A stretch of DNA of 64,000 nt, from assembly GCF_032854445.1 (NCBI RefSeq), contig NC_088306.1, positions 8,518,193 through 8,582,192 of the forward strand. The letters run 5' to 3'. The notes beneath the pieces are model-generated. The model worked only from the letters and a program-made list of their open reading frames with translations, did no database searches and was not told where the DNA came from. This DNA comes from Liolophura sinensis (lineage: Eukaryota; Mollusca; Polyplacophora; Chitonida; Chitonidae). Position numbers and translations under genes: made by a program. Shown piece after piece: positions 24,001 through 51,700 of this stretch (within the stretch, counting starts at the first letter, position 1; every line of letters begins with the position of its first letter).

Positions 24001-25972
24001 TACATGTATTTTCTGTATGTACCGTGTGCAAATCATCTTACCTCTCTGTGTACCATGTGCTCACGATGCATTCTCTGTGTGTACCATGTGTCACTGTGTA
24101 CTGCATGTTCATGCCATTCCTGTGTATACCATGTGCTCACAATGCATTCTCTGTGTGTACCATATGTCACTGTGTACTACATGTTCGCCATGCCATTCCT
24201 GTGTATACCATGTGCTCACAATGCATTCTCTGTGTGTACCATGTGTCACTGTGTACTACATGTTCACGATGCCATTACTGTGTATACCATGTGCTCACAA
24301 TCCATTGTGTGTGTGTGTACCATGTGTCACTGTGTACTACATGTTCATGCCATTCCTGTGTATACCATGTGCTCACAATGCATTCTCTGTGTGTACCATG
24401 TGTCACTGTATACTATATGTTCACCATGCCATTTCTGTGTATACCATGTGCTCACAATGCATTGTGTGTGTGTACCATGTGTCACTGTGTACTACATGTT
24501 CACCATGCCATTCCTGTGTATACCATGTGCTCACAATGCATTCTCTGTGTGTACCATGTGTCACTGTGTACTACATGTTCACCATGCCATTCCTGTGTGT
24601 ACCATGTGCTCACAATGCATTGTGTGTGTGTACCATGTGTCACTGTGTACTACATGTTCGCCATGCCATTCCTGTGTATATCATGTGCTCACGATGCATT
24701 CTGTGTGTGTGCCATGTGTCACTGTGTACTATATGTTCACCATGCCATTTCTGTGTATACCATGTGCTCACAATGCATTGTGTGTGTGTACCATGTGTCA
24801 CTGTGTACTACATGTTCACCATGCCATTCCTGTGTGTACCATGTGCTCACAATGCATTGTGTGTGTGTACCATGTGTCACTGTGTACTACATGTTCACCA
24901 TGCCATTCCTGTGTATACCATGTTCTCACAATGCATTCTCTGTGTGTACCATGTGCCACTGTGTACTACATGTTCACAATGCCATTCCTGTGTGTTCCAT
25001 ACAAGTGTGTTTGTGGTGCTGGCAGGCTGGTTTTGAGGTGGACTGGTGTAAGCAGCCTGACGTAGGCCTTCCTAAACCTGACCTGGTGATTTACCTGACA
25101 CTTAACCAGCAGGAGGCGGCTCGCAGAGGAGGCTTCGGCACTGAGAGGTATGAGCAGGCAGAATTCCAGAAGAAAGTGGCTGAAAACTTTGAAACCATTC
25201 GGGAAAAAGACTGGAAGGTAATTTCTCAAAGACTTATAAAAGGATACATGAAACTCTTGGTTTATATTTCTTAATACAGAGTTTATGATGTGGTTTAACG
25301 TGAAAAATACAAAAAAGCTTCTTGGGGCATAAATGGCAGTAAACTACAGTCTTCATAAGGCCCCAGTGGCGAGCCCAGAAATTAAGGAAACTGCTGTTGT
25401 GAGATCAACAGTGATAGCTGTCAAAACAACTTTGTTAGTGGGGACAACTCCAGTTGGGAGCGCTATTGAAGCTGGTCCTCTATTCCCAGTCTGTTCATTG
25501 ATGATGAAATTTCAAAGAAAACTTTCATAAAATAGAGGCCTGAGGCTATAAAGAAATGTAAAATATGCCTCAAAAAATGGAGAGTTTTTCTTTTATTCAT
25601 TTGCTTAGGCATGTAGTTTTAACAATGGTATCCATACATATTATGGTACCTGTTCGTATAGCCTTTTAATTCCAGAGTCAATTTCCCAGTTTCTGCAGGC
25701 AGGGATTGCTAACATCAAATGGGTCTACCACTTTGATTTTTATGTGAAGCGCTGGCCAGTGAACATTTGACTTGCATTTTTAGCTCCTCAGCTAACATTG
25801 GTGTACTGATGCACTGTTTCCCTGGGCAAACATATTTTAGACATGTATTTTTGGGTTACAGGTTATAGATGCTGACAAGAGTATAGAGGATCTCCATGCA
25901 GAAATAAAAAGCTTGGTGAAGAAAACCATGAATGACGTTCACTGGGAAGAGATCAGAACTTTGTGGACATGA
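18023..25972 (+). CDS. DTYMK: Thymidylate kinase (dTMP kinase), copy 1, five exons
   Basis: Phosphorylates dTMP to dTDP with ATP, an essential step to dTTP. Exons: 18023-18218, 18825-18933, 19842-19929, 25026-25217, 25862-25972, all with GT-AG junctions and matching phases (1, 2, 0, 0), ending LWT-TGA. Motifs in order: P-loop [10 protein letters not shown] with the catalytic Asp, RFPDRTT (exon 1/2 junction), [39 protein letters not shown], and lid [11 protein letters not shown]. The predicted 231 residues exceed the family's usual length of about 212 because of an N-terminal extension, [19 protein letters not shown]. It is Arg-rich with no acidic residue and looks like a mitochondrial presequence (inference). 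An internal ATG at 18080 would give a 212-residue form. Intron 3 (5.1 kb) holds a SINE and two minisatellite arrays, the second ending just before exon 4. A paralog lies at 42722-52634. Confidence 0.95.
19017..19116. repeat. 25-bp tandem repeat, 4 copies (DTYMK copy 1 intron 2)
   Basis: Four essentially perfect units starting TAGTTACATGTTTATTAG. Absent from the paralogous intron at 45027-45428. Confidence 0.95.
21392..21653 (-). repeat. V-type SINE, full length, in DTYMK copy 1 intron 3
   Basis: Minus-strand copy from a T-run to CCATGGAGGCCCC. A 15-bp target duplication CAGTGTTTGTAAACA flanks it (21377-21391 and 21654-21668). The tRNA-like head is complete. Confidence 0.9.
22720..23830. repeat. 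Minisatellite array 1 in DTYMK copy 1 intron 3 (50-bp core)
   Basis: The outer units are diverged and about 58 bp long (CTATTCTCCATGTGT, GCCACCAAGTATTC). The core at 23221-23670 holds nine 50-bp units starting TGCGGTCAAGTATTCTCTGT. The first four read CAGTCTATTCTCC and the last five CAGTCTGTTCTCC. Open frames of up to 243 residues in several frames are by-products. In the paralog only about three diverged units remain (about 49110-49290). Confidence 0.95.
24056..24995. repeat. Minisatellite array 2 in DTYMK copy 1 intron 3 (about 79-bp unit)
   Basis: About 12 units of 76-80 bp. Each contains TACCATGTGTCACTGTG, ACTACATGTTCACCATGCC, CATTCCTGTGTATACC and ATGTGCTCACAATGCATT. It ends only about 30 bp before exon 4, so the acceptor region itself is nearly repeat-derived. 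The plus strand is open in all three frames. Confidence 0.95.
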
Positions 25973-30463: not shown

Positions 30464-32371
30464 CTAGTGTACACACATTTAAGTAACTTTATAAACATTT
30501 AAGTAACTTCAAGGACATATGTAGACAAGAATTAGGCATTTCGTGATTTTTATTAAAAGAAATAGTTTATCTTTCACCACTACTGATGTAATGTATTTTA
30601 TGTTTTACATTTTACTACAAATAATTGCTTACCAGGTATTAACAATCTGCAATATATTACCAACATAATACTAATAATAGCTTTTTTTTATGATGACTGC
30701 AGTCAATTATGAAATGCTCAGTTAATTTAAATATGCTGAAATTATTAAATTTTTCTTCAATAAAAATAAATTTAGAACTAGTGTAAGAATATGTAAGGTT
30801 GTATACCAGTAAGCAAAGTTAACTACAATGAGGTCCTGACAAAGGCCTGGCAGTAGGACCTTGAAATTATTTTACTGACCATTAAATGATCCATTACCAG
30901 GTTATAATGATGATTCCACATTCAAAACAGTATGACGATATAATTAAAACGGATACATTTAATTTGTAACATATAGTAGCCCTTGTGCTAGCTTCAATGC
31001 ATTTGTGACATGACAATGGCTAAAGGCATTTCTTCGGGCGAGCGCCACCTCCCGTGAATAAAAAATATCTGTCTGTCTCATTTTTTTCACCATATATTAA
31101 ATTGAGAGCCCTGAATAAAGACAATTGTTATACTTGATACAATAACTTCAGTAATTTAATTGCCAGTTAACCTATTAAAGTGAAGAACTTGTTAAGATGC
31201 CTCAAGGAAATATCCATCCATGTTAGACAAACATGTCTGCAGATGGTAATGGTAGCCTACACCGATCCTGCACTGATGAAGCACAAGTATGTTGATAAAC
31301 CAACATATGTTGATAAACCATAAACAAAAACTTCTACTGATAAACCATACACACCTTAAATGCTTTAAAAAAGGTCTTTGGGATATTACTCTTTATTTGA
31401 AATAATAGCAGCTTGTAAGTGATTAAATTCACCAAAATCACATTCAGTGATATGTATAACATCAGCCAAGATACAGTGCTGGCTGAACAATATAATGGAT
31501 AATATAATGGCTAAACTTGAATTTCTGCACTAATAATTACAAAGATGTGATAATATCTATCTACCTATCTATCTATCTATATATATATATGTGTGAAAAT
31601 TGTACCATTGGGTGACCGATTGGGGTTTCACAGTGTCATTGAGGCGACCCTTTTCATTAGGGCGACCACTGCTGGTCGCCTTAATGTTTGTCCTTATGAT
31701 TTGTAAAGCCAGGCCCAGATTTGAATGATATAGAAGACTGACAGTGTTGGTTATGAAGTATGAAAGTTATGAAGCCACTTTTTGACGTCCTACCTTCTGC
31801 TTTTATCCAGTTTTATTCACTTCTAAAATGAATGGTAAAAAGATGACATTTAGGCGACCACTAAAACTTCTTGTCTTTCACTGGACTTCTCATGTATATG
31901 TGGTAAATAACATGCCTGGTTATGCCATTTTTTTATGCCCCATGTTATTATTGGCTTTTAGTGGAGAACGTCCCTTGTCTAAGTTTTTTTTAACATACAT
32001 GTATATACGTTATCGGGGGTAAAACTCGGCACCGTGCAACGACTATTGGCAATGCTGTCACGAGACTGTCTCGCACGTTGCAACAGCCAGGTTTAATGAC
32101 GCGATGCACAAGATACGAGTCTGTCTTAGAGTTGCGGAAGAGTTTGGATCGGGAAAGAATGATCTAAGGTAAGCCGTTTAAGTGTTACTCTGTATAACTA
32201 CTTAAAATTGTTTGAAAACCGTATGATTGTAAAGCTTTTTACAAATTAGGAACAGGTGTACTTGTTTTTATTGTAGACAGTTAAACGGTTAATTGCTTCA
32301 CAATCTGCGAATCACATTCCCGCGACGTCCCAACAACAACAACAACAAGCGAAAAGGGCATGCTGAAACTA
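30463..32371. other. No gene; short GGCGACC motif patch
   Basis: AT-rich sequence. A TATC/TA run lies at 31551-31592. Between 31603 and 31860 GGCGACC or its complement occurs several times (TGAGGCGACCC, TTAGGGCGACCACTG, CTGGTCGCCTTAATG, TTTAGGCGACCACT), the same motif that dominates 41025-42215. Confidence 0.55.
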
Positions 32372-32866
32372 CTCCTGTAATCTGGAAAAACCTAGTTAGT
32401 CAGTTGAATGCAAATTGGAGGAAACAAAGGAAACGTGTTTTGTTTCAGGATTAAGCTGCAAAATATGAAATAAATTTTATTTCGGCATTTTAGATCAAGA
32501 CAATTAGATGCCTTTTCAGCTCACATAGGTATATTATTGTTACTGGTTTAATTTGGTTACAAAATGACTTACTATGTTTTACCTGATCTAACCAATCCTT
32601 CAACTAAAACATTTTATCAACAAAAGCCTAGTATGTCAACAGCAGCGTGATAACTTCACTTTATTGCCTAACACATGAACAATTATCAGAGAAATAACAC
32701 CAAGTGTAGTTTGAATACATAAAACAAGTGTTTTAACTAATCAACAAGATCATGATTTGCTGTGATTTCCAGCCAGAATTTTATCTTAGCCGTGGTAAAT
32801 AAATCTACCAGTCTGAGACATTTTCGAGGAATAGCAGCAACTGCAGCTTGATTACATATTTAGGAA

Positions 32867-33817
32867 TCACCCAAAGTGTTCAACAAAGTCATCATTGTTG
32901 TCATTTACTGGAATTTCCTGCCAGAATTTCCTCTTAGCAGCGGGGAATGAATCGGCCAGTTTCAGAATATTCTGGCGTTTCACGCTAGGAATTCCTCTTG
33001 GTTCATTCTGTGTTGGTGGTGTAAAGTCCAGTCTGAACTTGGGTTTAAGAAAGTCAACTTCCTGGTACATGTAGTCTCCTTCAAAACCCTCCTTAAACCA
33101 CATTGCGCGTGAACCTTTACGAAATTCTGCCACTGATATGGAGCTGAGATGAGGTAGCGTTACGTTCTTGGACTTTCTATTACCGTGACCGTCCTCAAAT
33201 TCATAAAAGTCATGGTATTGCATTGTGATTGGCTTGATCTTAGTTCCCGATTTGTCACACAAATCTACGAAGTCCTGGAAATTACAAATCTCGGGACATT
33301 TCTTCATTTTCCTTCCAATGCAGCCATGGACGCTGTCTGCATGCATAAAAGTGTGTCCCCTTTCAAAATACTTCATTGTGATACTTTGTGGGCCCCAGGG
33401 TTGATTGACACACCAACACAACACCGTGTAAGGGACCCAGTTTTTGTTTTGTCCCGTGCAGTTGTCTGTCCAGAATATCACAAAATCTGTCTCACAAAGG
33501 CACAAACACTTTATATACGTGGAGGCAATGTCAACTCCTAATCTACCCCTGATAGCCTCATGCCACAAAATAACAAAGTCACCGTCTTCTTTTACTGATG
33601 CAAATGTCTCATTGAAGACAACTAATCTGCTAACAAAGAAATGTTCTTTGATGGTCATTTTGGGAAGGAGGATAACCTTTTGCATATCTACAGTAAATAT
33701 ACTGGTGTTTTCCTTATCAACAGCACCATCGTGGTCTTCTCGATAATGGGTACAGAAAACGTGAGAACATCCTGACTGAATTGTCTTTAAAAAAGTTGTC
33801 CAATTTGTTGTGATCAC
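32867..33817 (-). CDS. DUF7869-like, transposase-like protein, 5'-incomplete
   Basis: An uninterrupted frame of about 316 codons ends EHFG-TGA. It contains FTVDMQKVILLPKM (about 41-54), FWTDNCTGQNKNW (about 115-127) and ERGHTFMHADSVHG (about 152-165), followed by a charged C-terminal tail with KPKFRLDF. The spaced acidic and His residues in these blocks resemble the domain catalogued as DUF7869, found in many copies in invertebrate genomes and suspected to have an RNase H-like fold (recalled family knowledge, not searched). No ATG starts the frame: it opens after a TGA a little upstream, and the first internal Met is at about residue 45. Related full proteins are usually longer, so an upstream exon or 5' half is missing. 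It sits inside the TIR-bounded element 32372-34212, which suggests it is, or derives from, that element's transposase. Confidence 0.7.
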   Translation of the reverse strand: MITTNWTTFLKTIQSGCSHVFCTHYREDHDGAVDKENTSIFTVDMQKVILLPKMTIKEHFFVSRLVVFNETFASVKEDGDFVILWHEAIRGRLGVDIASTYIKCLCLCETDFVIFWTDNCTGQNKNWVPYTVLCWCVNQPWGPQSITMKYFERGHTFMHADSVHGCIGRKMKKCPEICNFQDFVDLCDKSGTKIKPITMQYHDFYEFEDGHGNRKSKNVTLPHLSSISVAEFRKGSRAMWFKEGFEGDYMYQEVDFLKPKFRLDFTPPTQNEPRGIPSVKRQNILKLADSFPAAKRKFWQEIPVNDNNDDFVEHFG

Positions 33818-33868
33818 ATGACCAGAATTAGGTAATGTGATTGGTTTAACTCATATGAGAAATAATTT

Positions 33869-34147
33869 GACTTGCTATGTTTTTCCCTTTCAATTGATCC
33901 AGGTAAAAAGTATGAAAGCGATTCCTGTTGAGAGCTTTTGATCTTGTAGAACCTAGTAAGTGACATGTAGTCGTACATTGATCTGGAAAAACCTAGCAAG
34001 ACGAATTACTAGGTTTTCCCAGATGACTATGTGGTATTTTTCCACATGATATTGACTTACTAGCTTCTTCAAGATCAAAAATTCCCAACAGGAGGGACTT
34101 TCACACACTTTACCTGGATGAAATGAAAGAGAAAAACATAGCAAGTC
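33869..34147. repeat. Large imperfect hairpin inside the transposon
   Basis: Two arms of about 135 bp, centred near 34006. The outer ends read GACTTGCTATGTTTTTC and its complement. Inner blocks include TTTTGATCTTG, CTAGTAAGT and, at the centre, CTGGAAAAACCTAG facing CTAGGTTTTCCCAG. The central motif is the same as the element's terminal repeat. Confidence 0.85.
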
Positions 34148-34216
34148 CAGTTGTGGGCCTAACTCATTTTTCACCAAAATTTGACTTACTAGGTTTTTCC
34201 AGATGACAGGAGACTA

Positions 34217-35009
34217 GCACATGGGAGTTTGTAGGGAATAAGTTGCTGTCTCCGCATTTCATTTATGCTATGTCATTGTCTTTCGGTTCCTTAGCATGAA
34301 AATTTGTTAAATAAAGTCACTCAGTCAATTAATCAATTTCTGGGGAGCTATTGTATTTGTGGGTTGCTAACCTATCAATCGCATTTTTAATGCTAGGCAT
34401 CAAAAGACAGCAACCTATTCCCTACAACCTACCGCTAACCGCAACATTAACAGCCACATGAAAGTTGAAGTAATTCTGCCGACATTAGGCCTACGTTTTA
34501 GTTATTGCCTTTTGTCAGTTTATCACATAGAAAGAAACAAGCCAATAGATCTAAATGATTCTACAAAATGATGCATATTCACCACTGTTGCCTCCAGCCA
34601 CCTAACCCCTTTTTGCAAATGTTAGGACTGGTAATACAGTGTTTTTTATGGTGTTTTGTTTAGTGTACATATGCCTAGAAATGTCAGCAGATAACATGTT
34701 GACTGAAAATTAATGGTGCATGATGGTTTGACTTCCATGTATTTGCTGCACATGAAAATCATTAAAACAATGGCAGGGAATCCTGCATAAATTTGTTGTC
34801 ATCCCTAGTCTAGAACCACATTAAGGTTTATCGGCTTTTATATGGTATATTTTTGTGCTTGGGTGGAGTAATTAAAAATAACTTTCTGTTTGCAGATTGA
34901 AAGATGTTGAGCAGAGGGAAAAATGGTAAATATTTGCAAACCATACTATTAATGTTACACGTTATGAATATGTATGTCAGTCATTTCAAGATCCAAATTG
35001 AGGAGCGGG
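34217..35009. other. No gene recognised
   Basis: Short open frames only. The adjoining text TTGCAGATTGAAAG with ATG at about 34904 has acceptor-like context but reads into the SINE region. Confidence 0.45.
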
Positions 35010-35021
35010 CCCTGGCTTCTT

Positions 35022-35268
35022 TTTTTTTTTTTTTGATTGGTGTTATACACCGTACTCAAGAATATTTCACTTATACGACGGCGGCCAGCATTATGGTGGG
35101 TGGAAACCGGGCAGAGCCCGGGGGGAACCCACAACCATCCGCAGGTTGCTGGCAGACCTTCCCACTTACGGCCGGAGAGGAAACCAGCATGAGCTGGACT
35201 TGAACTCACAGCGACCGCATTGGTGAGAGGCTCCTGGGTCATTACGCTGCGCTAGCACGCTAACCGAC
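35022..35268 (-). repeat. V-type SINE with target duplication
   Basis: Minus-strand copy from a T-run to the head at GCTAGCACGCTAACCGA. Flanked by CCCTGGCTTCTT at 35010-35021 and 35269-35280. The first bases of the tRNA head are missing. Confidence 0.9.
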
Positions 35269-35671
35269 CCCTGGCTTCTTGATTAAGGCGCTAGTCTTTC
35301 AATCATAGGTCACATGGGTTGTGGCTTCAATCCCATTCTCGGACACAGAACTTCAGAGGTGCAGATAAAATCAAGCCTGCTGAAAATCTATCCTGAACAT
35401 AGGGTAATTTCACTGGTGATTAAAATTAGACTTCATATTTAATTCGTCAACTTTTTAAAGCTAATTTGAGACCTTGTCACATTGCTAAATCAATGTAAAA
35501 ACTCTTAAAACATATAATTCTTACCAGTGTTTTGGAATTTCTTTTTTACAGTACATTGGTCTCCTATTATGTAGTTATTATTAAAAACTTAGTACATACC
35601 ATGGGTACTTTATAAAATTTATTAATTTTTTTTTCAAACAGTAACTGAGCAGGAGGAGTAAAGCAAATCCA

Positions 35672-37570
35672 ATGGAGGATTGTATTTTTTATATAAATTG
35701 TAACCTTGATAAAGATGGACTGGAAGTCAAATTTATCAATCAGTTAAATGGTGAGTTGTGCTTTGCTTTTATATTTAGTATTATGTTACAGTGTGTTTTA
35801 TTTACAATTAAGGAATAAAAATGGAGGAAAATGTGATTTAAGTTTTCACAGTATGTAAATTGGTTTCCACCTTCACAGCTTTTATCTGATTTCAGATGTC
35901 ATATACCTGAAGTCATGATTAATGTTGCATGAAGCAAAAATCATTCATTGATGGCCAGATTTTGTACTTGGACGCCTCAGCTAATTTAGAGGGAGGATAA
36001 TATTGTTTTGCCTGTAACACAGTGTTGTTCATATGGGCATGATTTGTATCCCAGATTCATACCAGATGGACAAAGTGGTGAAGTCTGTTGAATTTAAACC
36101 AGGCTTTACAAATATATTCACATTGATCTTTAGTTAGCAAGTGTGATGTATGTGTTTGCCTGGGCAGGACATGGTGACCTCAGCATAATATCCAATCTGA
36201 ATTGTTCATTGAAGATTTTTAAGTCATGTTTTGCATTATTAATAATCAGAAATATTTTTACATGATGTAAGTGAACACAATTTGACATATTCAAAGCCAA
36301 GATCTGAAGTAGTAATCTTATTCAGTGACATATTTTAAATCTTTGAAATAAGTTATAAGATTTATGTCAGGTTTGACTTCTGAGTTTTCTGAAGGTCTTT
36401 GTTTAACATTTCAGGCAATGGAGGACAAGAATGTGGGGTCCTAGCTGGATTTTTTTCCCTTTCAGTGGAAAAGCGGAATGGTAAGTTCTGCAACTAAAAG
36501 CAGTGTATTTTCCTCATGCCATTCTGTTAATGCTGTAGTCAAAGTGCAGAGAATACTTTCTAAAATACATGTTGAACCCCTAGTTTGGAATTAAATAGCT
36601 TTTTAAACAATGCTAAAAAACCAGTAGGGTTTACCTAGTATTGAGCTGTGCACAAGTATCCACTATGTTACATCACAGGGGTGATAGCAAGTCTAAGGTA
36701 AGCTAATGCAGTTCCCCATGAAATAAAGCTGCTATAAATGTGTCTCAAACTAAAAGAAGGTACATTTTATATTTTGACTGATAAATTTCATGGAAGCATT
36801 TGGTCTTCCTTGCATGTGCATCCCGTACCAGTTTCAGTTGACATTCATCAGTTTTATTGGATTCCTTATTTACCTGTGAGACACTTATACTAAAAGTTTT
36901 GGTCATAAGCAGATCAGTGTGATGTCTCTGCTTTTCTATATTTTCCCTCTTACTCTCCAAAACAGCGGTATACAAATGTACACATCCACAGACTTGTGTA
37001 CGTTCAACTTTGAAATTGTGTGGCACTGATAAACAAAATAATATGGATGTGCATATGTGACACACTAGTGTGTACGACTGGTACACAGTTGTATTTTCAC
37101 TGTTTGTGAAATAAGAGACATCGAAAATCTTGCTTCTAAGCTTATAGGAATTAACTCAGTATCAAATGCAAAGATAAAAATGACACTATTATTTTTCTTT
37201 CTGTCGCTCATTCAGACGACAGCTGCAATATGGAGACAAGGCAACATATGGCTGCATCCCATCAACGTCAGAAAGGTGAGTGTTTTTATATTAGCATGTA
37301 TTCCTATATATTGCTGAGGATACATGTACATTACTTTAATCTGCACTTTTCATTACATTCAGTTACAGGGGAATGTACAACAATACAATTACTTTTCTGT
37401 TCTGTTTCTTTTCTATCCCTTTGAAGCAGATAAACTCAGTCAGGAATTTATCAGTAAAACAGTGAACAGTTCAGCTGTATATAAAAAATCAGAATTATAT
37501 TTTTTCTACAGGTTTCTACTTTTCCACGCTTTTCCCATGCTGTGTACCAAATTTTCATGTTTTTTGTAGA
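35672..37570 (+). CDS. Unrecognised spliced gene candidate (four short exons)
   Basis: Four short open segments join with GT-AG sites and matching phase-1 introns. They are 35672-35750 (starts MEDCIFYINCNLDKDGLEV), 36415-36480 (GNGGQECGVLAGFFSLSVEK), 37216-37275 (SCNMETRQHMAASHQRQK) and 37430-37570 (starts DKLSQEFISKTVNSSAVYKK, ends at TAG). The last acceptor has a strong pyrimidine tract. Together they give about 115 residues. I recognise no domain. The match of three consecutive junctions in phase is the only evidence, and chance or a decayed gene remain possible. Confidence 0.3.
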
Positions 37571-45700: not shown

Positions 45701-48700
45701 GGAGTGGTTGGCCCGGTGTCAGGATAATGTGAAAGGGTAGGGTGTCATGTCTGGTGTCTTTGGCATCATGCTTCAGTGGCGGCAGCACTTTAGAAGCTTG
45801 GACTCCCTTACAAGAAGACAGAGTACATGTACTCACACCTAATGACTCCTCATTGCCGTACAACCCCGAGCATAAATATGTACACATGTTCCAGTCATGC
45901 TTTTGACATACTACCAGAAATCATCTGTCAGATCAGTTAAATTAGCTTTATTCATGTTAACCCTCTGCTTGACCCATATCATTTATAACTAATATCGTAA
46001 TAGCGGCCCGTTCCGTTCCATTGGGTTCGACCGCCAAGTCGCAAAGGAGAACAAACGCCAACGTTTTCTGCTACTAAAGCCTTTTATTATATTGTTGCTC
46101 TGTAAAAACAAGACAAATACAGTACAATCAACAAAATATGACATGGACACGTGATGAATACAAACAGTTGTTTTGAAAATTTTCTCTAAATTTGAATACG
46201 ACGCCAAACTTACACAAAACTACCACCATATAAAAGAAAAGAACAGATATGAACCATTTTGTTCTTGTTACGCAGAAACGCAGAATAGCAGAATGGGAAA
46301 AACGCATGCAGCGGCAAAGCACGACCTCTGCTGGTCAATGACCACACCAGATTCTGCCTGACCACACCCGAATGCTGTAAAGAGGCGCTCTATCAGGGGG
46401 GACAAGCTATGTGTGCTGTGAACTACAGCTTTCACATACCTCCTCAAAATCATAAGTGGGGATAGTTTTAGGTGCTACTCCAGCTACTCCAGAACAAGCA
46501 GAACCAGCTTCTGGACCGGTCGGTATAGTTGGCTCAACGGCCGTGTATGCGCACCCTTCGCATCATGAGAATGGTCACCAACAACAAGCTTAACCTTCTG
46601 ATGCGCATCAAGGTGAAATTTACCTTGAGGAGGCAACAAAACCTCTGATTGCATAGTAAAGAGATGATTTAGAGTAAGCGGTTCAACTGACAGAGGATCA
46701 TTTAAGTTATGAACGGTGAATGGACAACTGTTTACTACTGTGACGTCTTGATACAAAAAGGTTCTAAATGACTCAAAGTCAAGGCATGTACCAGAGGAGT
46801 CCAAAAGTGACAACAATGCCGACCGCACTGTCCGGATCTGGCGCTCCCAAGATACCCCCCATATGACTTGCTGCTGCAACATTCGTTTTAAATGCCACAT
46901 AGTCGCAGTCCCTTGTCAACAAATACTCACGCACGCAATCATGATCCATCTCGTCGTCTGCTGCGCGAAGCTCGCGTTCTGCGCCTACAAAGTTTGTGCC
47001 TCGGTCTGAAAGCAACCGTCTTATGGATCCATGTAATGACACAAACCGTCGAAGCATGTTAATGAAAGAGCCAGTGGTGAGATCTTTCATTGCCTCTGTA
47101 TGGAGGGTCCACGATGGTCCAAAGATGTCTACACGGCTGTACGCCCATGGAGGAGCTGGGCAAAGACGATCGATTGGTAGATCAGCCATCTTCTGTTCCT
47201 GTAGAGGACGACACATCTGGGTAGATCAGCCATCTTCTGTTCCTGTAGAGGCCGACACATCTGGGTAGATCAGTCATCTTCTGTTCCTGTAGAGGCCCAC
47301 ACATCTGGGTAGATCAGCCATCTTCTGTTCATGTAGAGGCTGACACATCTGGGTAGATCAGCCATCTTCTGTTCCTGTAGAGGCCGACACATCTGGGTAG
47401 ATCAGCCATCTTCTGTTCATGTAGAGGCCGACACATCTGGGTACATCAGCCATCTTCTGTTCCTGTAGAGGCCGACACATCTGGGTAGATCAGCCATCTT
47501 CTGTTCCTGTAGAGGCCGACACATCTGGGTAGATCAGCCATCTTCTGTTCCTGTAGAGGCCGACACATCTGGGTAGATCAGCCATCTTCTGTTCCTGTAG
47601 AGGCCGACACATCTGGGTAGATCAGCCATCTTCTGTTCATGTAGAGGCCGACACATCTGGGTAGATCAGCCATCTTCTGTTCATGTAGAGGCCGACACGT
47701 CTGGGTAGATCAGCCATCTTCTGTTCCTGTAGAGGCTGACACGTCTGGGTAGATCAGCCATCTTCTGTTCCTGTAGAGGCCGACACATCTGGGTAGATCA
47801 GCCATCTTCTGTTCCTGTAGAGGCCGACACATCTGGGTAGATCAGCCATCTTCTGTTCCTGTAGAGGCTGACACATCTGGTCCTGTAGAGGCCGACACAT
47901 CTGGGTAGATCAGCCATCTTCTGTTCCTGTAGAGGCCGACACATCTGGGTAGATCAGCCATCTTCTGTTCTTGTAGAGGCCGACACATCTGTGTAGATCA
48001 GCCATCTTCTGTTCCTGTAGAGGCCGACACATCTGGGTAGATCAGCCATCTTCTGTTCCTGTAGAGGCCGACACATCTGGGTAGATCAGCCATCTTCTGT
48101 TCCTGTAGAGGCCGACACATGTGGGTAGATCAGCCATCTTCTGTTCCTGTAGAGGCCGACACATCTGGGTAGATCAGCCATCTTCTGTTCCTGTAGAGGC
48201 TGACACATGTGGGTAGATCAGCCATCTTCTGTTCCTGTAGAGGCCGACACATCTGGGTAGATCAGCCATCTTCTGTTCCTGTAGAGGCCGACACATCTGG
48301 GTAGATCAGCCATCTTCTGTTCCTGTAGAGGCCGACACATCTGGGTAGATCAGCCATCTTCTGTTCCTGTAGAGGCCGACACATCTGGGTAGATCAGCCA
48401 TCTTCTGTTCCTGTAGAGGCTGACACATCTGGGTAGATCAGCCATCTTCTGTTTCTGTAGAGGCCGACACATCTTCCAACACTGGACACAATTATATATA
48501 TATAGACCGCACAAGTACAACCCACTATCCAAAAATCACTTGACCTTACATGGTTAACGGTTATCCCACGGTTCTGTTTCCTTATGACAGTGACGAATTA
48601 CCATTTCGGTCAGCTGATGCTTTCATGGGAGAATCATAGAATGCCGAACAACGCTGGGCAATCCTGACTTGCGCAATCTTCTTCATACTCTCATCAAGCC

Positions 48701-51700
48701 AGCCTTACCTAGAATTGGATCCAAGCAGTACAAGGTACCGGTGCGCTTGAGTGTCTTCTTTCTATGATTGGAAGATTGTAGACCTGTATCTGGCTCACCA
48801 ATTCCCAGTGAAACTAAGGCAGTTCCTTCACTGGGGAAGGCCTCCCACTGCACCACCTTCAAAATATCATCCTCGGCCTGTCTCCAGAGCTTCACAATGA
48901 CAGGATCGATATACTGGAGTTGTTTGCTGCTTGATTGAGTTCTTACTCTGACTTTATCACATCGACTACGACTTAACAACCACCACTTTAGCCTCAGACA
49001 GTTTGCTACAAATTCGCTTTAAGCGAAACCACTTGGACAAATGAGCTAATCTACCTAAATCAAAACCAGACTCAACCTGATTGGACTGGGTAGCAGCAGA
49101 TACCATGATTTCTCTGTGTTCTCAAAGTCTATTCTCCATGTGTAACATGTGCCATAAAGTATTTCCTGTGTGCTCACAATCTATTGTCACAGTCCATTCT
49201 GCATGTGTAACACGTGACATGAAGTACATGTATTTTCTGTATGCTCACAGTCTATTTTCCATGTGTAACATGTGACATCAAGTATTCTCCATGGCTGTGC
49301 TCACCATTTTACCACAGGTTCTGTGTTCAGCATGTGCCTGCCATGTATATGTATTCAAAGTTTCCTCACCATCTGATCTCTGTGTACCATGTGTACAGCC
49401 ATCTATTCTTCATGTGCTCACCATTTTGCCTCTTTGTGTACCATGCGTGATCATCTGTCCTCCAAGTGCTCACCATTTTATCTCTGTATGCACCATGTGC
49501 TCACCATTTTATCTCTGTGTACCATGTGTGATCATGTACGTGTATTTTCTCGGTCTACCATGTACTCATCATCTTACCTCTGTGTGTGTACCATGTGCTC
49601 ATGATGCATTCTGTGTGTGTACCATGTGTCAATGTGTACTACATGTTCACCATGCCATTCCTGTGTATACCATGTGCTCACAATGCATTCTCTGTGTGTA
49701 CCATGTGTCACTGTGTACTACATGTTCACCATGCCATTCCTGTGTATACCATGTGCTCACAATGCATTGTGTGTGTGTGTACCACGTGTCACTGTGTAGG
49801 CCTACTACATGTTCACCATGCCATTCCTGTGTATACCATGTGCTCACGATGCATTCTCTGTGTGTACCATGTGTCACTGTGTACTACATGTTCACCATGC
49901 CATTCCTGTGTATACCATGTGCTCACGATGCATTATCTGTGTGTACCATGTGTCACTGTGTACTACATGTTCACCATGCCATTCCTGTGTATACCATGTG
50001 CTCACGATGCATTCTCTGTGTGTACCATGTGTCACTGTGTACTACATGTTCACCATGCCATTCTCTGTGTATACCATGTTCTCACAATGCATTCTCTGTG
50101 TGTACCATGTGTCACTGTGTACTACATGTTCACCATGCCATTCCTGTGTATACCATGTGCTCACAATGCATTGTGTGTGTGTGTACCATGTGTCACTGTG
50201 AACTGCATGTTCAACATGCCATTCCTGTGTATACCATGTGCTCACAATGCATTGTGTGTGTGTACCATGTGGCACTGTGTACTACATGTTCACCATGCCA
50301 TTCCTGTGTATACCATGTGCTCACAATGCATTCTGTGTGTGTACCATGTGTCACTGTGTACTACATGTTCACCATGCCATTCCTGTGTATACCATGTGCT
50401 CACAATGCATTGTGTGTGTGTGTGTACCATGTGTCACTGTGTACTGCATGTTCAACATGCCATTCCTGTGTATACCATGTGCTCACAATGCATTGTGTGT
50501 GTGTACCATGTGTCACTGTGTACTACATGTTCACCATGCCATTCCTGTGTATACCATGTGCTCACAATGCATTCTGTGTGTGTACCATGTGTCACTGTGT
50601 ACTACATGTTCACCATGCCATTCCTGTGTATACCATGTGCTCACAGTGCATTCTCTGTGTGTACCATGTGTCACTGTGTACTACATGTTCACCATGCCAT
50701 TCCTGTGTATACCATGTGCTCACAATGCATTCTGTGTGTGTACCATGTGTCACTGTGTACTACATGTTCACCATGCCATTCCTGTGTATACCATGTGCTC
50801 ACAATGCATTCTGTGTGTGTACCATGTGTCATTGTGTACTACATGTTCACCATGCCATTCCTGTGTATACCATGTGCTCACAGTGCATTCTCTGTGTGTA
50901 CCATGTGTCACTGTGTACTACATGTTCACCATGCCATTCCTGTGTATACCATGTGCTCACAGTGCATTCTGTGTGTGTACCATGTGTCACTGTGTACTAC
51001 ATGTTCACCATGCCATTCCTGTGTATACCATGTGCTCACAATGCATGGTGTGTGTGTGTACCATGTGTCACTGTGTACTACATGTTCACCATGCCATTCC
51101 TGTGTATACCATGTTCTCACAATGCATTCTGTGTGTGTACCATGTAACTGTGTACTGCATGTTCACCATGCCATTCCCGTGTATACCATGTGCTCCACGA
51201 TGCATTCTCTGTGTGTACCATGTGTCACTGTGTACTACATGTTCAACATGCCATTCCTGTGTATACCATGTGCTCACAATGCATTCTTTGTGTGTACCAT
51301 GTGTCACTGTGTACTACATGTTCAACATGCCATTCCTGTGTATACCATGTGCTCACAATGCATTCTCTGTGTGTACCATGTAACTGTGTACTACATGTTC
51401 ACCATGCCATTCCTCTGTATACCATGTGCTCACAATGCATTCTCTGTGTGTACCATGTAACTGTGTACTGCATGTTCACCATGCCATTCCTGTGTGTTCC
51501 ATACATGTATGTTTTTGGTGCTGGCAGGGTGGTTTGGCAGTGGACTGGTGTAAGCAGCCTGACGTAGGCCTTCCTAAACCTGACCTGGTGATCTACCTGA
51601 CACTTAGTCCGGAGAAGGCGGCTCGCAGAGAAGACTTCGGCCGTGAGAGGTTCGAGCAGATAGAATTTCAGAAGAAAGTGGCTGAAAGCTTTGAAATTAT

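Follow-up and report, generated by a model that had tools for sequence, protein, structure and literature searches.

The window analysed here is a stretch of 64,000 nucleotides from contig NC_088306.1 of the mollusc Liolophura sinensis (assembly GCF_032854445.1, positions 8,518,193 to 8,582,192, forward strand), and the feature under study is a transposon at positions 32372-34212 that encloses an open reading frame (ORF) related to the Pfam domain of unknown function DUF7869 (PF25273). The initial annotation had described this segment as bounded by inverted repeats of about 31 bp and a direct 4-bp duplication, ACTA, and as enclosing a 316-codon ORF, and each of these points was borne out. The arms of the terminal inverted repeats (TIRs) are 31 nt long and 94% complementary, an ACTA adjoins each of them, and the ORF has 316 codons when counted from a GTG at residue 12 (327 from stop to stop) and carries the motifs TDNCTGQNKN and GHTFMHAD. 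Window positions of all features are collected in Table 1.

When the two flanks of the element were joined into a 206-bp sequence with a single ACTA, this sequence was found at 100% identity at three other sites in the 609-Mb genome, and nine more match it at 85-98%; all 12 places match over nearly all of the 206 bases (85-100%). When the junction was rechecked in four empty copies, each proved exact over 39 bases. The element has therefore inserted into a copy of an older, multicopy repeat, duplicating exactly 4 bp, and the segment is a real insertion of a transposon with precise ends. Four sites of the TIR core CTGGAAAAACCTAG, allowing up to two mismatches, occur in the window, one in each TIR and two inside the element; 0.52 sites would be expected, and none of 100 shuffles contained four or more.

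Copies of the family to which the window element belongs, referred to as family A, were collected by searching the genome with the terminal 25-mer. The terminal sequence occurs 33 times, corresponding to 16 elements with both ends, the window copy included, and one lone end, and the reversed pattern used as a control had no match in the genome. Exact 4-bp duplications flank 15 of the 16 elements, and the duplicated 4-mers differ from copy to copy with little sequence preference; the idea that ACTA-like duplications would be the rule did not hold. L011, the sole family-A copy without a matching duplication (AGCG versus CCTT), is possibly a recombination product or has a rearranged flank.

Two family-A copies are 3.7 kb long and 99.3% alike. 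The same 1868 bp are missing from thirteen copies of 1.81-1.84 kb, including the window copy, and one copy of 1718 bp carries a different deletion. It is because of this internal deletion that the window copy measures only 1.84 kb. Pairwise identity among the 13 short copies is 99.2-99.9%, so their amplification was recent, and the window copy is a recently inserted, non-autonomous deletion derivative, ordinary in itself. The portion deleted from it is carried by the 3.7-kb copies and by a decayed relative on contig C96, whose version of this part aligns with the N-terminal half of the protein of another transposon family (family B, below) at 32% identity over 267 positions. A longer form of the ORF, which the initial annotation had suggested looking for in TIR-bounded relatives, was thus present in the 3.7-kb copies, though with interrupted frames.

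Residues 1 to about 33 of the window ORF derive from sequence that lay upstream of the deleted part, and the remainder is encoded by the parent gene's 3′ half. The first ATG is at residue 56, so the ORF is not an obvious complete gene. Homology ties it to two further families, E and F, whose longer proteins pass the PF25273 cut-off. The link of a DUF7869-like ORF to mobile DNA, proposed in the initial annotation, is strongly supported by the copies, the duplications and the empty sites, but on sequence grounds the window ORF is the C-terminal deletion remnant of a larger, putative transposase and not an intact one.

Searches of the genome gave at least 67 matches for the window protein, at least 31 for the DUF7869 model and at least 74 for the family-C protein. 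Ends were mapped for six families, the fetched DUF7869 loci L070-L081 lying outside this mapping. Five families in addition to family A (B-F, Table 1) contain related frames of 451-691 codons, each family having its own inverted repeats and 4-bp duplications. Over the families, the ends begin with CTCC, CTGCC, CGCTACC, CGCGACC or GAAGAG, the starts being partly alike between C and D and between E and F. Elements with a long gene measure about 2.9-4.8 kb, and their TIRs, of about 15-50 bp, differ in sequence. In the fully read copies of families B-E (L026, L028-L034), the DUF7869-type frame is the longest one between the ends. Scores against PF25273 are 41.4 and 47 bits for families E and F (cut-off 26) and 16-23 bits for A, B and C, and for family D a DUF7869 match was not listed in the Pfam scan.

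Of the 39 elements in which both ends were found, 35 are flanked by exact 4-bp duplications (A 15/16, B 1/2, C 5/5, D 4/5, E 9/9, F 1/2), and in none of the 39 does the match extend to 5 bp. As controls, positions one step further out matched in 0 of 39 elements, and mismatched ends shared a 4-mer in 85 of 1482 pairs. Left out of the count were two of the 11 family-E copies, whose second end lies outside the fetched stretch, the lone ends (one of A, one of C and two of D), and L027 (family B), L035 and L067 (both family F), in which one or no end was found. The exact duplications of families B-F have the form A..T in 19 of 20 cases and are strictly AWWT in 11. In this genome, at least six families of TIR elements that share a 4-bp duplication carry DUF7869-type genes.

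Residue conservation was assessed in an alignment of 13 DUF7869-type proteins, all from this genome. Three aspartates of the window ORF, D55, D129 and D172, spaced as DD42D, are conserved in nearly all of them (Table 1), the exception at the first two positions being L076, which has a His in place of the first Asp and is gapped at the second. This pattern suggests that the three residues may form an Asp-Asp-Asp (D-D-D, or DDD) catalytic triad. A Glu seven residues after the third Asp, within GHSFLPADRVFGRIE, was considered as the third catalytic residue; it is present in 10 of the 13 proteins and replaced by Gly in every family-A locus with a readable motif, so that family A would be catalytically dead. 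This candidate was dropped because DUF7869 proteins have Asn or Lys there, while the Asp is kept in all 13; by analogy with other Asp-Asp-Glu (DDE) enzymes, Glu could yet be the third catalytic residue. CxxC motifs were counted for the 12 other proteins only, since two Cys of the window ORF that fall in aligned invariant columns are located within, or at the border of, its first 33 residues, which are non-homologous. Five comparisons between lineages gave proportions of nonsynonymous differences (pN) of 0.21-0.43 and of synonymous differences (pS) of 0.81-0.95, the latter saturated; pN lies below pS, so the protein has been under purifying selection between lineages.

Among other resources, NCBIfam gave no match for seven proteins, and PHROGs yielded, for one of four proteins, only weak matches (E about 0.009) to families without an assigned function. 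When viral contigs were scanned three times and prokaryote genomes once, each time with one to six short patterns, three of the four scans returned 8, 5 and 13 matching stretches and the remaining one none; no stretch was a confirmed relative, though scans of this kind do not show absence.

We propose that the window element is a recently inserted, non-autonomous derivative, shortened by deletion, of a cut-and-paste transposon, and that the parent element codes for a transposase of the DUF7869 family, with Sola as the most likely superfamily and Sola2 as the closest group, and we regard this explanation as probable. The full-length protein would combine Cys motifs in its N-terminal half with a domain resembling ribonuclease H (RNase H) that holds the D-D-D triad. 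It would bind the inverted repeats, and perhaps also the two internal copies of the core, excise the element and join it to a 4-bp staggered cut, the repair of which would yield the 4-bp duplication. Since the window copy has kept its ends but lost the N-terminal half of the gene, it would have moved in trans, with the transposase of an intact relative.

Several observations weigh against this proposal. The window ORF scores 19.4 bits against PF25273, below the 26-bit cut-off, and exact duplications are missing in four of the 39 elements. The form A..T is found in just four of the 15 family-A duplications, and the strict AWWT form in just 11 of the 20 from families B-F. In each of the 3.7-kb copies the frame is broken at places where it stays open in the short copies or the C96 copy, so that none of the three long family-A copies examined is intact, and an intact family-A source was not seen among them. 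Residue E98 (in WHE) of the window ORF is also conserved in 12 of the 13 proteins, as are D55 and D129, so a different triad could have been chosen. In three within-family pairs, pN roughly equals pS or is somewhat lower, which says little on selection there. AlphaFold, run on the window sequence alone, gave a mean predicted local distance difference test (pLDDT) score of 32.0 for the whole ORF and 29.7 for residues 44-200, and the RNase H-like fold therefore stays conjectural; a six-sequence profile had no match among solved structures up to E 10, and another search of solved structures returned a single chance-level match (E 0.057).

That the window copy is itself autonomous, its 327-codon ORF being a complete short transposase, is extremely improbable. 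The frame is open and contains the three proposed catalytic Asp, and nine of the 16 family-A copies match it in a single stretch covering its full length, eight of these without an internal stop; yet the ORF is the product of an internal deletion relative to the 3.7-kb copies, is without the N-terminal half found in its relatives and has no ATG before residue 56. Nor do its changes show a bias towards the third codon position: the 13 short copies have 24 variable sites in the 984-base ORF (9, 7 and 8 at codon positions 1, 2 and 3) and 18 in the 857 non-coding bases, and the spread over codon positions is even, as expected for a frame no longer selected, so nothing indicates selection on the short ORF. 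It is also very unlikely, if slightly less so, that the DUF7869 protein is a passenger in elements moved by another transposase. Such a role would be compatible with the putative nature of its transposase activity and fold, but a DUF7869-type frame is carried by all six families, each with its own ends (the partly alike starts of C/D and E/F apart), it is the longest frame in the fully read B-E copies, and it is under purifying selection between lineages.

The superfamily, which the initial annotation could not name and took to be perhaps a poorly described one, can now be placed tentatively in Sola by the 4-bp duplication, the D-D-D pattern and the variable ends, an unnamed superfamily being the main rival. 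Published accounts credit Sola elements with a DDD transposase, 4-bp duplications, lengths of mostly 2-9 kb, TIRs of 11-1124 bp and very variable ends (PMC10741241). Sola2-type elements of two amoebae are reported to have AT-rich duplications (AWWT; ATAT, AAAT, ATTT) and TIRs of 12-21 bp (PMC3627910), and the Sola1 family SrosS of the choanoflagellate Salpingoeca rosetta to be 3270 bp long with a 32-bp inverted terminal repeat and a 4-bp target-site duplication (PMC6875170, Table 2). By these descriptions, the DUF7869 elements are like Sola in their 4-bp duplication (35/39 exact, 0/39 of five bp), in the size of those with a long gene, in having TIRs and in their variable ends, and SrosS is close in plan to the 3.7-kb copies. 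The DDD feature of Sola may have a counterpart in the three Asp (12, 12 and 13 of 13), but E98 is likewise found in 12. The A..T form of the B-F duplications is like Sola2, whereas the family-A duplications are not AWWT and are in this respect unlike it. The 4-bp duplication, D-D-D pattern, size and variable ends fit the published descriptions, and the superfamily is for this reason most likely Sola; the likeness is to published descriptions, and the placement is to that extent putative. In the sources examined, the name Sola is not attached to DUF7869.

The same transposon biology could instead belong to DUF7869 transposases that form a superfamily of their own, not Sola and not yet named, which is possible but doubtful. 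The Pfam label, which is only DUF7869, agrees with this, as do the family-A duplications with their lack of an AWWT preference, and no mention of DUF7869, PF25273 or the motif variants was found in a literature search, which was partial and did not include Repbase entries, so that the link may already be known. Against it stands the match, by the descriptions above, of duplication length, Asp triad, variable ends, size and the A..T duplications of B-F to Sola or Sola2, together with the similar plan of SrosS. Put more specifically, and just as tentatively, DUF7869 might mark the catalytic domain of such a DDD superfamily, with a conserved 4-bp cut, a target preference specific to each family (mostly A..T, relaxed in A) and at least six families in one genome. 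We give almost no credence to membership of the CACTA/Mirage/Chapaev/Transib group. Chapaev elements are reported to make 3- to 4-bp duplications (PMC4079192), a length shared by the elements here, and Chapaev/CMC elements to have CAC...GTG ends and C(2)C and H(3-4)H motifs between the second D and the last E (PMC4079192, PMC12730594). However, none of the ends found here fits CAC...GTG, and the motif order differs, the CxxC of the alignment preceding the first D.

Three other candidates were rejected. Elements of the piggyBac and Kolobok superfamilies duplicate TTAA, which is found in none of the 35 exact duplications. Zisupton/KDZ elements are excluded by the 8-bp duplication reported for Zisupton (PMC12730594), as the match extends past 4 bp in 0 of 39 elements. 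Ginger, described as having a transposase like the integrase of Gypsy (PMC10741241), was set aside because none of the seven family proteins scanned gave an integrase match up to E 1.

The window copy itself being ordinary, the more useful result is the presence of at least six DUF7869-type TIR families. Our findings suggest a role for a Pfam domain of unknown function, the DUF7869-type genes of this genome being best read as transposase genes and not host genes; if this is true in other genomes, many gene models now called uncharacterised would be re-annotated. Should these proteins constitute their own superfamily, a diverse group of transposases would be hidden behind the label of unknown function. 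The families, their ends and the empty sites provide defined substrates for direct testing of activity.

Table 1. Features of the window element and its host repeat, and the further DUF7869-type families of the genome. Positions refer to the window unless a locus is named.
Feature	Position or terminal sequence	Strand	Basis or remarks
Whole non-autonomous element, 1841 bp	32372..34212	- (strand of the transposase remnant)	Ends, 16 genome copies, empty sites
ACTA target-site duplication, left copy	32368..32371		Single ACTA at three 100% identical empty sites
ACTA target-site duplication, right copy	34213..34216		Empty sites, junction recheck
TIR, end adjoining the transposase C-terminus	32372..32402	+	Same end in 16 copies and one lone end
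TIR, upstream end	34182..34212	-	Same end in 16 copies
Open frame of 327 codons, C-terminal DUF7869-like putative transposase part fused to about 33 codons of formerly upstream sequence	32867..33850	-	Homology, deletion mapping; PF25273 19.4 bits
Codon of D55, first proposed catalytic Asp	33686..33688	-	12/13 proteins; block such as VDMQK or FDVME
Codon of D129 (TDNCTGQNKN), second proposed catalytic Asp	33464..33466	-	12/13 proteins; D.C..Q
Codon of D172 (GHTFMHAD), third proposed catalytic Asp	33335..33337	-	13/13 proteins; GH.....D; 42 residues after D129
Junction of the 1868-bp internal deletion relative to the 3.7-kb copies	33751..33753		Element positions 460/462 align to L010 460/2329
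Internal exact copy of TIR core CTGGAAAAACCTAG; possible transposase-binding site	33983..33996	+	Core search
Internal TIR-core copy, one mismatch	34009..34022	-	Core search
Subterminal inverted-repeat arm, 98 nt, 83% complementary to 34055-34152	33864..33961		Repeat search
Subterminal inverted-repeat arm	34055..34152		Partner of 33864-33961
Host repeat (older, multicopy), left part	31553..32371		Two of four compared copies extend here or nearly; two begin near 32131-32142
Host repeat, right part	34213..35821		Runs to the edge of the fetched stretches
Family B, 566-codon frame	L026, 331-5092		Ends mapped
Family C, 614 codons	Inverted repeat CGCTACCTC...		Five complete copies, about 4.1 kb
Family D, up to 680-691 codons	CGCGACCTGAG...		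Five complete copies, 3.1-3.3 kb
Family E, 451 codons	GAAGAG(A/C)TTAA...		11 ends found, nine copies with both ends
Family F, 476 codons	GAAGAGTTTGG...		Two copies with both ends

Some of the fetched loci hold further features. L070:576-1943, L077 and L078 form a divergent subgroup of DUF7869 (GHTKFAPDWCFGLLKR) in which Lys replaces the Glu, and L070 has the best Pfam DUF7869 score among the genome matches listed (60.6 bits). At L027:4835-6670, about 1.5 kb downstream of the family-B DUF7869 frame, lie two adjacent frames of another transposase, which we take to be of the piggyBac type; the 414-codon frame among them matches Pfam DDE_Tnp_1_7 with 187 bits.

Within the window, a 29-nt inverted repeat (34223-34251 and 34405-34433, 90% complementary) lies just to the right of the element, inside the host repeat. 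Two arrays of a nearly identical 79-bp tandem unit, with 12 copies at 24047-25000 and 24 copies at 49583-51502, are about 25 kb apart and give rise to several long open frames that overlap and are rich in Cys, His and Val, and a 44-bp tandem array of about 30 copies with 96-97% matches occupies 47176-48474. An Rfam scan of the window gave no matches. On the minus strand, a 352-codon frame at 4574-5632 matches Pfam 7TM_GPCR_Srsx with 27.4 bits (cut-off 24.1) and is likely, from this match, to be a seven-transmembrane receptor gene, a kind of gene that points to an animal genome.
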